NCBI GenBank assembly: GCA_021828475.1
Contig: JAJZIY010000009.1
Span: 17,407 to 81,406 of the forward strand
Length of the DNA: 64,000 nucleotides
Reading direction: 5' to 3'
DNA from: Actinomycetes bacterium
GTDB taxonomy: Bacteria > Actinomycetota > Acidimicrobiia > Acidimicrobiales > Palsa-688
Under the pieces are notes generated by a model. That model had not been told where the DNA came from, did not search any database, and saw nothing but the letters and a program-made list of their open reading frames with translations. The translations under genes were made by a program, and so were the position numbers. Position 1 is the stretch's first letter, and the number at the start of each line of letters is the position of its first letter. Of this stretch, positions 18,366 through 20,750 are shown one piece after another.

Positions 18366-18767
18366 CTAGGATGAGCGGCGACGGCCTCCCTTTGACTGGG
18401 AGGCCTCATAGGCGGTCCTGACTTCCGCTGGTATGCGGCCACGGTCGCCGACGGCATAGCCCTGGGCGCGGGCCCATTCGCGGATCTCGGCCTGGGACTC
18501 ACCGCGTGGGGTTGCGGCCGGGCGATTGGCCCGGGACGAACGACCTACAGGTGCAGCGCCCCGGCCGCGCCGGCCGCGGGCAGCACGGCCCGTAGCGTGC
18601 CCGGCGTTGGCAAAGCCCTCGAGGACGCCCTTTACCTCCTCGAGGTGGTCCTTGCAGAGGTCGAGCGTGTACGACTTGCCGTTGTAGCTGAACGTCAGGG
18701 AGTCGTCGGCGCTGACGTCCCCTTCCTCCAGGTCGCACGTTACGACCACCTGCGTGATACGAGCCAC
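18366..18767 (-). CDS. lsr2: Lsr2-like nucleoid-associated protein
   Basis: MARITQVVVTCDLEEGDVSADDSLTFSYNGKSYTLDLC ... SQAEIREWARAQGYAVGDRGRIPAEVRTAYEAS. Confidence 0.95.
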   Translation of the reverse strand: MARITQVVVTCDLEEGDVSADDSLTFSYNGKSYTLDLCKDHLEEVKGVLEGFANAGHATGRAARGRRGRGAAPVGRSSRANRPAATPRGESQAEIREWARAQGYAVGDRGRIPAEVRTAYEASQSKGGRRRSS

Positions 18768-18977: not shown

Positions 18978-18985
18978 GGGCTACG

Positions 18986-19058
18986 TGGGCGCTGCGGGCC
19001 TCGATCCCGCGACCTTCGCCTTGTAAGGGCGGCGCTCTTCCAACTGAGCTAAGCGCCC
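18986..19058 (-). tRNA. tRNA-Val(TAC)
   Basis: GGGCGCTTAGCTCAGTTGGAAGAGCGCCGCCCTTACAAGGCGAAGGTCGCGGGATCGAGGCCCGCAGCGCCCA folds as cloverleaf; loop CTTACAA. Confidence 0.93.
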
Positions 19059-19171: not shown

Positions 19172-19549
19172 TCAGGCGATCTGGCGCGAGCCCAGCATGT
19201 TGGCACTTCCGACGGCGCTGAGGTGCCGCTCCGGTTCGCTAGGTATTGTGACGGCCACTTTGGGAGGGCGTCCGCGTTTTCGCTTGCGCGGTATCACCCG
19301 CCCATCGGCAAAGAGCTGGCCGCCCCAGACACCGGCGGGTTCGCGGCGCTCGAGGGCACCTTCGAGACATCTGGCCACCATGGGGCACGAGCTGCAGATC
19401 GCCTTGGCCAGGTTGATTTCGGCTTCTTCATCCGAGAAGAAAAGCGCGGTGAGCGTGCCCGAGCCGTCCTGACAGGCCGCGTCCTGCCAGGTCGTGGGCT
19501 CCGAACGGTCGATCTCGCAGCCGGGGCTGGACCAGCTGTAGGCGAACAT
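19172..19549 (-). CDS. WhiB7/WblC-like transcription factor with C-terminal AT-hook
   Basis: Four Cys (CEIDRS...AACQDG...CSSCPMVARC), GVWGG turn, RKRKRGRPPK AT-hook. Confidence 0.92.
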   Translation of the reverse strand: MFAYSWSSPGCEIDRSEPTTWQDAACQDGSGTLTALFFSDEEAEINLAKAICSSCPMVARCLEGALERREPAGVWGGQLFADGRVIPRKRKRGRPPKVAVTIPSEPERHLSAVGSANMLGSRQIA

Positions 19550-19561
19550 CTCGCATTCCTT

Positions 19562-19594
19562 CCTGTGGGTGTAGGGGCCCTGTGGGTGTAGGGG
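19562..19594. repeat. 17-bp tandem duplication in the whiB leader
   Basis: cctgtgggtgtagggg at 19562-19577 and 19579-19594. Confidence 0.85.
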
Positions 19595-19620
19595 GGGGTG
19601 AACGATGGACCGCTGCCGGA

Positions 19621-19657
19621 CAAACAAAGAGGCCGCCGGGGGTACCCCGGCGGCCTC
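19621..19657 (-). terminator. Strong intrinsic-terminator-like hairpin upstream of whiB
   Basis: Minus strand GAGGCCGCCGGGG-TAC-CCCCGGCGGCCTC, 13-bp stem, then TTTGTTTG. Confidence 0.85.
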
Positions 19658-19682
19658 TGGGCCTTTCCTGCGAGCGGACCGA

Positions 19683-19877
19683 TCAAGTCGGTGGAGGCTC
19701 GCTGGGGCTCGTCAGCCGCTCGGGGTGGCGGTACCACTTGGAGGACGTGGAGGCGGTTGCCGGCATGGGCTCAATGCCAGAACCGAGGCCTGCCCCGGCC
19801 CGGGCCGCTGCGAGGTCGGCACGCTTCTGCGCGCGCGCGAAGGCCAGGTCGGCCACTTGCTTGGTGCTCATGTCCAT
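19683..19877 (-). CDS. Small ORF (64 aa) in the whiB upstream leader; possible regulatory uORF
   Basis: AGGAGGTCGG-ATG strong SD; MDMSTKQVADLAFARAQKRADLAAARAGAGLGSG... Confidence 0.65.
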   Translation of the reverse strand: MDMSTKQVADLAFARAQKRADLAAARAGAGLGSGIEPMPATASTSSKWYRHPERLTSPSEPPPT

Positions 19878-19926
19878 CCGACCTCCTCTCGAACGCGCTG
19901 AACCTGTCGATGCGGGTACGCCGTCC

Positions 19927-19955
19927 ATCGCAGCATGCCCGGCGCCGGAAGTCAA
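19927..19955 (-). promoter_or_regulatory. Candidate promoter for small ORF/whiB (TTGACT-N17-TGCGAT) with AAATT just upstream of -35
   Basis: Minus strand CGAAATTGAGTTGACT...TGCGAT. Confidence 0.45.
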
Positions 19956-20000
19956 CTCAATTTCGGGACCGGGCTCGCGACAGGCGCGCCCTGGGGGCGC

Positions 20001-20750
20001 TCAGGCCGGGCGCGGTCCTCTGCGGGCAGCCAGGAGCTGCTCCAGCAGCTGCTCGTTCGCAGCCGCCACGAGCGAACGCCTCTCCCCTGGGCGGCGCAGG
20101 ACGAGCGGCCGGCCGTCGAGCTCGCCGACCCTGGCCCCAGCCTCGGAGCACACGAGCAGGGCCCCCATGTAGTCCCAGGGTGCCAGCCCGGCCCGGCTGC
20201 AGTCAACGAACCCGTCCACCATGCCACAGGCCACGGCACACAGATCGAGTGACGCGGCCCCCAGCGCCCGGTACTGCGCCCAGCCGTAATGTGACGACGG
20301 CCACCCATTGAAAGCCACGACCGCTTCGGACAGCCTGCCGGCGGTACCGGGCGTGGCGGGCGAGCCGTTGCATGTGGCGCCCCCACCTCGCACCGCCTCG
20401 AAGCAGAGGCCGCCGGCAGGGCAGGCGACGACCGCCGCCAGCGGCCCGGACCGGTCGAGGGCGCACAGGCTCACCGCCCACCAGGGCAGCCCACGAGAGG
20501 CGTTGGTGCTGCCGTCGACCGGGTCGACGACGACGAGGATCTCGCGGCCGGCGCCGCTCACGCCGGACTCCTCCGAAAAGACCCCGAAGCCTGCGTCCCC
20601 CAGCACGCTGAGGGCAGCGGCGTCGGCCACGACATCGTGGCGGTACTGGCCGTGGAGCGTGCCTGTCAGCCCCCAGTCCCGCTGGCCGGCGAGAGCGTCG
20701 CGCACCGCCACCACGGTGCGCCGCAGCACCTGGAGCACCTCGTCGGCCAC
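20001..20750 (-). CDS. Inositol monophosphatase family protein
   Basis: VFSEESG; VVVDPVDGSTNASRGLPWWAVSL; APWDYMGALLVCSEAGA. Confidence 0.93.
   Translation of the reverse strand: MADEVLQVLRRTVVAVRDALAGQRDWGLTGTLHGQYRHDVVADAAALSVLGDAGFGVFSEESGVSGAGREILVVVDPVDGSTNASRGLPWWAVSLCALDRSGPLAAVVACPAGGLCFEAVRGGGATCNGSPATPGTAGRLSEAVVAFNGWPSSHYGWAQYRALGAASLDLCAVACGMVDGFVDCSRAGLAPWDYMGALLVCSEAGARVGELDGRPLVLRRPGERRSLVAAANEQLLEQLLAARRGPRPA

Follow-up and report, generated by a model that had tools for sequence, protein, structure and literature searches.

In the leaders of whiB7 and wblC, full translation of an upstream open reading frame (uORF) favours a transcription terminator, while blocked translation favours an antiterminator (PMC11550727, PMC4128351, PMC13236596). 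The Mycobacterium whiB7 leader carries such a uORF together with a Rho-independent terminator (Dinan 2014, PMC4128351; also Lee, Lee and Roe 2022, as cited in PMC11550727), and a rule that couples the WhiB7 AT hook to an AT-rich motif directly upstream of the -35 element has been described for WhiB7 promoters (PMC3905903). Attenuators of the trp/ilv type, such as that of ilvB1 in M. tuberculosis (PMC13236596), act likewise: once a ribosome has reached the stop codon of the leader the antiterminator is masked, whereas it can form when the ribosome stalls. Here we describe a leader of this kind in a 64,000-nucleotide stretch of an Acidimicrobiales genome (hereafter the window; contig JAJZIY010000009.1, positions 17,407 to 81,406). 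We consider it very likely, on comparative grounds, that whiB7 of this uncultured Acidimicrobiales bacterium is controlled by ribosome-mediated transcription attenuation combined with autoactivation by WhiB7. The mechanism itself is known for Mycobacterium and Streptomyces whiB7/wblC, and the leader of the window is, judged by its sequence, a deep-branching addition. The full-text literature on WhiB7 and Acidimicrobi, subscription papers aside, yielded no treatment of an Acidimicrobiales whiB7 leader. The gene is not new, since an earlier study (PMC10205998) already recognises a whiB7 clade in a tree of marine Acidimicrobiales.

The identity of the window protein is consistent across several approaches. 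The initial annotation had described a WhiB7/WblC-type C-terminus, a GVWGG turn followed by an AT hook (GVWGG...KRKRGRPPK), and this is confirmed by both Pfam and the orthologue alignment A1. Pfam finds a Whib domain (E=2.4e-14) and, at residues 89-100, an AT_hook whose 17.5 bits lie just above the 17.4 cut-off. In A1, residues C26, C52, C55 and C61 and the GVWGG turn do not vary, and the KRKRGRP columns vary little or not at all. Among solved structures the top match is M. tuberculosis WhiB7 (E 1.5e-17), ten orders of magnitude ahead of WhiB1 (4.9e-7). A maximum-likelihood tree of 84 proteins, built on 100 columns only and unsure in its inner order, joins the window protein to M. tuberculosis WhiB7 on a 100/100 branch that leaves out the other Wbl proteins, including the five others encoded by the same genome. 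The phylogenetic placement proposed earlier as a check therefore sets the protein with WhiB7/WblC and not away from them, and supports its membership of the WhiB7 group. Canonical WhiB7 forms a 100/99 clade in this tree, beside or inside the Acidimicrobiales set. Orthologues of the window protein (E<=1e-20) occur in 163 of the 249 genomes sampled from the order.

Several observations touch on the gene and its relatives. Downstream of whiB7, on the minus strand, lie tRNA-Val(tac) (18985-19058) and an lsr2-like gene (18366-18767). One genome, G029, holds a canonical-type WhiB7 (L032) and, in addition, a whiB7 of the Acidimicrobiales type whose coding sequence is divided between two frames (C255:30182-30432); this may reflect a frameshift, an assembly error or a foreign contig. 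Loci L084, L086 and L113 come from metagenome-assembled genomes whose records name Bifidobacterium breve or Candidatus Fonsibacter lacus; their bins or labels look wrong, because the whiB7 genes there are Acidimicrobiales- or Nanopelagicaceae-like.

The leader parts listed by the initial annotation were all recovered (Table 1), on the minus strand between 19964 and 19172, and the terminator stem, previously given as 13 bp, is now counted as 14 pairs.

Table 1. Features of the whiB7 leader in the window, from the coding sequence back to the promoter.
Feature	Position	Strand	Details and basis
whiB7	19172..19549	-	ATG at 19549; 125 aa; four cysteines, GVWGG turn, C-terminal AT hook KRKRGRPPK
whiB7 Shine-Dalgarno AGGAAGG	19558..19564	-	seen in sequence
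T-rich terminator tail TTGTTTGT	19620..19627	-	sequence, terminator scan
Intrinsic terminator stem-loop AGAGGCCGCCGGGG-TAC-CCCCGGCGGCCTCT	19628..19658	-	14 pairs, loop of 3; terminator scan and leader comparison
Antiterminator 3' strand (predicted)	19646..19663	-	overlaps terminator 5' arm; fold, covariation
Antiterminator apical hairpin GCGAGC..ACCGA-CTTGA-TCGGT..GCTCGC (predicted)	19670..19702	-	uORF stop codon in loop; fold
Antiterminator 5' strand (predicted)	19702..19724	-	within last uORF codons; fold z = -3.97, covariation, swap control
uORF (putative translation sensor)	19683..19877	-	64 aa from ATG 19877, 62 aa from ATG 19871; TGA 19685-19683
uORF Shine-Dalgarno AGGAGGT	19881..19887	-	sequence, leader comparison
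-10 hexamer TGCGAT	19927..19932	-	17-nt spacer; sequence, conserved across leaders
-35 hexamer TTGACT	19950..19955	-	sequence, conserved across leaders
AT-rich patch GAAATT	19959..19964	-	three bases 5' of -35; presumed WhiB7 AT-hook site by analogy with M. smegmatis/M. tuberculosis WhiB7 (PMC3905903)

The promoter, GAAATT-GAG-TTGACT-N17-TGCGAT (19964-19927), has an AT-rich motif directly upstream of its own -35, as in the WhiB7/WblC promoters of PMC3905903, and would start transcription near 19920. Its AT patch, pointed out earlier as a sign of WhiB7 dependence, is conserved over 76 leaders: along its five consecutive positions the A/T share is 86, 95, 96, 91 and 76%, against mostly 24-53% on either side. 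Downstream, the sequence given as the tail of the 14-pair terminator stem reads TTGTTTGTC, and 78 nt separate the terminator from the whiB ATG (19549). A 16-nt direct repeat, CCCCTACACCCACAGG, occurs in two copies (19594-19579 and 19577-19562) between the terminator and whiB7; in a relative, G007, this site holds another local duplication, which differs from that of the window.

Taken by itself, a generic terminator scan says little, with 1 hit where 0.9 would be expected, and an Rfam search of the window returned only tRNAs, with no match to the leader. Nonetheless, the leader parts are not a product of chance, because the promoter motif is unique, because terminator, uORF and promoter recur together at orthologues, and because such a terminator is lacking at the other Wbl genes of the genome. 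Without mismatch, the promoter motif has a single site in the 3.38-Mb, 147-contig genome, the whiB7 leader of the window. Upstream of orthologues the order is AT patch, TTGAC, 17-18 nt, -10, a uORF of ~45-80 codons, its stop codon and, 20-30 nt further on, a terminator with the arm (G)AGGCCGYCGGG. This layout is identical in 25/25 leaders of the window's family and in dozens more across the Acidimicrobiales, with uORF, terminator and the spacing between them all conserved; most of the relatives compared are metagenome bins. The genome encodes five further Wbl proteins, and no comparable terminator stands upstream of any of their genes.

Since a phosphatase-family gene (20942-20001) with the orientation of whiB7 comes to its end at 20001, the hairpin might be its constitutive terminator, with the whiB7 promoter situated after the hairpin. 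The promoter at 19964-19927 stands between that gene and the hairpin, however, and is conserved along with uORF and hairpin; the hairpin arm moreover covaries with the uORF tail, as described below. Between the hairpin and whiB7 a promoter scan detected nothing of the sigma-70 type, although the same scan also misses the conserved promoter. We regard a constitutive terminator as highly improbable, and favour one that belongs to the whiB7 transcript.

Relative to the initial annotation, the new part found here is a predicted antiterminator that is built from uORF sequence and competes with the terminator. RNAalifold returns the terminator when given the full leader, which hides the antiterminator, and the latter was therefore tested as a named structure. 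When the RNA was folded only up to the terminator 5' arm, at least 6 bp formed between the uORF tail and that arm in 91/92 leaders; the mean z of these folds was -3.86 against dinucleotide shuffles, and each of them fell below -1. Covariation was tested on 16 named pairs in the 25 family leaders, where 88.7% of cells were paired and 8 of the 16 pairs had changed on both sides, whereas a partner offset by one, two or three columns gave at most 50.8% pairing. The model-fitted alignment A3, which contains short wrong-strand matches to the terminator, was left out of the pair counts. In a swap control, arms folded with their own tails at -32.4 kcal/mol, compared with -25.5 kcal/mol for foreign tails, and of 38 non-redundant leaders 34 had the own tail as the better partner (p 1.3e-8). 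The covariance model R1, for which the family served as the source, matched in 49/61 relatives, its strong matches lying beside whiB7, and matched none of the other Wbl genes tested.

The antiterminator draws its 5' strand from the uORF. The uORF announced earlier, with its near-perfect Shine-Dalgarno sequence, is present, and translation may start at the second in-frame ATG (19871), which is the start used by relatives L010 and L011. The initial annotation had allowed that the 64-aa uORF could be a real small protein. Under such an explanation the terminator would merely set the ratio of the two genes, and both the good Shine-Dalgarno sequence and a length conserved at ~45-80 codons would fit. 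The pattern of substitution argues strongly against it. When 16 pairs of related leaders are compared, the uORF body shows 0.157/0.143/0.190 changes at the three codon positions, almost equal at all of them, compared with 0.062/0.041/0.206 for whiB7 in the same genome pairs. The last 15 codons change two to three times more slowly than the body at all codon positions, as expected of a constraint on RNA, and outside this tail the peptides differ widely between genera. What is conserved is position, frame, stop codon and tail, while the peptide drifts, which answers the earlier proposal to compare the conservation of uORF sequence and position. On this evidence a working small protein is highly improbable. 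Because the peptide body appears to evolve nearly free of amino-acid constraint, the uORF is, from its sequence, a sensor rather than a small protein.

Compared with seven genes of the window, the uORF bodies of the 25 family leaders (L006, L008-L031) are poor in acidic residues (D+E 4.3% vs 12.1%) and rich in Ser+Thr (18.3% vs 10.0%), with Ala barely raised (16.9% vs 14.7%).

Placement of the uORF stop codon ties the reading frame to the RNA structure. The stop codon falls in a hairpin loop of the predicted antiterminator in 25/25 family leaders, where 2.7 are expected, and in 63/92 of all leaders, where 10.7 are expected; outside the window's family it does so in only 38/67. For the window leader, predicted energies are -45.3 kcal/mol for the antiterminator, -25.3 for the antiterminator masked by a ribosome at the stop codon and -32.1 for the terminator, and the corresponding averages over leaders are -40.7, -24.9 and -26.5 kcal/mol. 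These are equilibrium predictions, and they are not decisive, because in 35/92 leaders the terminator does not exceed even the masked antiterminator in stability. Kinetics may therefore matter to how the switch works.

A terminator and an antiterminator alone would also fit riboswitch logic, and in principle the switch could respond to a ligand or an RNA-binding protein instead of a ribosome. Such a reader has no Rfam match to point to, and would leave an antiterminator built around a uORF stop codon to be accounted for. In L042, L045, L050, L053 and L055-L057 the uORF ATG lies 7-10 nt downstream of the -10 without a Shine-Dalgarno sequence, as in leaderless translation, while other lineages, the window included, have a Shine-Dalgarno-led uORF; the place of translation is thus kept however translation is started. 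We consider a non-ribosomal reader very unlikely, and retain the translating ribosome as the probable reader.

We are now able to propose a model for ribosome-read control of whiB7. WhiB7 would switch on its own promoter, its AT hook reading the AT patch upstream of the -35 and its Wbl domain binding the primary sigma factor, by analogy with the family. The uORF would begin shortly downstream of the transcription start. Complete translation would bring a ribosome onto the stop codon, which lies in the loop at the tip of the antiterminator, and so open the hairpin; the 5' arm of the terminator would then be free, and transcription would end before whiB7. Should the ribosome stall early, or fail to initiate, as a result of an antibiotic or amino-acid shortage, the uORF tail would capture the terminator 5' arm ahead of synthesis of the 3' arm; with the antiterminator kept, RNA polymerase would continue into whiB7. 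We infer that the attenuator switch would operate in the cell, that WhiB7 would activate its own promoter and that inhibitors of translation would be the drugs that trigger the switch. The resemblance to whiB7 leader attenuation suggested by the initial annotation is supported by the conserved uORF, terminator and spacing, to which the competing antiterminator is now added.

Searches for further WhiB7 targets gave little beyond whiB7. Across the 32 genomes from the window's family, the complete promoter motif has 20 sites, of which 19 lie at whiB7, with 0 matches for the reversed control, and no regulon promoter common to the family was seen. The one match elsewhere is G011:C5:13465-13500 (L228). 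A looser search of the window's genome returned 14 matches, several of them inside reading frames, where the control gave 4; neither these 14 matches nor the strict search of the genome contained a convincing WhiB7 target promoter besides whiB7. The only suggestive one among the looser matches is L217 (G000:C125:8721-8756), a one-mismatch WhiB7-like promoter 106 nt upstream of an ABC-transporter ATPase gene resembling drug exporters, and a weak lead to a regulon member. A broader proposal, which we put forward tentatively and think rather unlikely as a whole, is that the Acidimicrobiales attenuator has settled on the stop-in-apical-loop geometry as a peptide-blind detector of completed translation, and that WhiB7, because the full motif stands almost only at whiB7 in the family, may be mainly self-directed or control a differently built regulon.

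Comparison with the described leaders places this element among them. Like the window, the Mycobacterium whiB7 leader has an AT patch upstream of the -35, a Shine-Dalgarno-led uORF, a terminator between uORF and whiB7, and a uORF tail able to pair with the terminator 5' arm. The terminator and tail sequences differ (GGCCACGGACCC against AGAGGCCGCCGGG), and R1 does not match Mycobacterium-type loci. Streptomyces wblC leaders (L155-L161, taken as Streptomyces-type by sequence) share the order of parts, and their antiterminator hairpin starts right at the uORF stop codon, which again resembles the window. Their uORF is longer, however, at 90-109 aa as called here, their stop codon lies in the apical stem rather than the loop, and their sequence differs. 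Unlike trp/ilv-type attenuators, the uORF of the window shows no series of regulatory codons dedicated to a single amino acid, and its nearly unconstrained peptide body fits a sensor of general translation arrest. The same folding was applied to WhiB7 loci outside the order, a set that also holds a few remaining order members. Of the 35 leaders there that have a terminator, 33 showed arm-tail pairing and 19 had the stop codon in a loop. Given this pairing and the published mechanism, we take the element of the window as a homologous member of the same system in another class.

The RNA model R1 locates the element in unannotated genomes. As indicated here, the ribosome-read whiB7 switch extends beyond mycobacteria and streptomycetes to the mostly uncultured Acidimicrobiales and, being common to these bacteria as well, it is probably old. 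The combination of a stop codon held in a loop with a drifting peptide would explain how a single leader answers many unrelated translation inhibitors.
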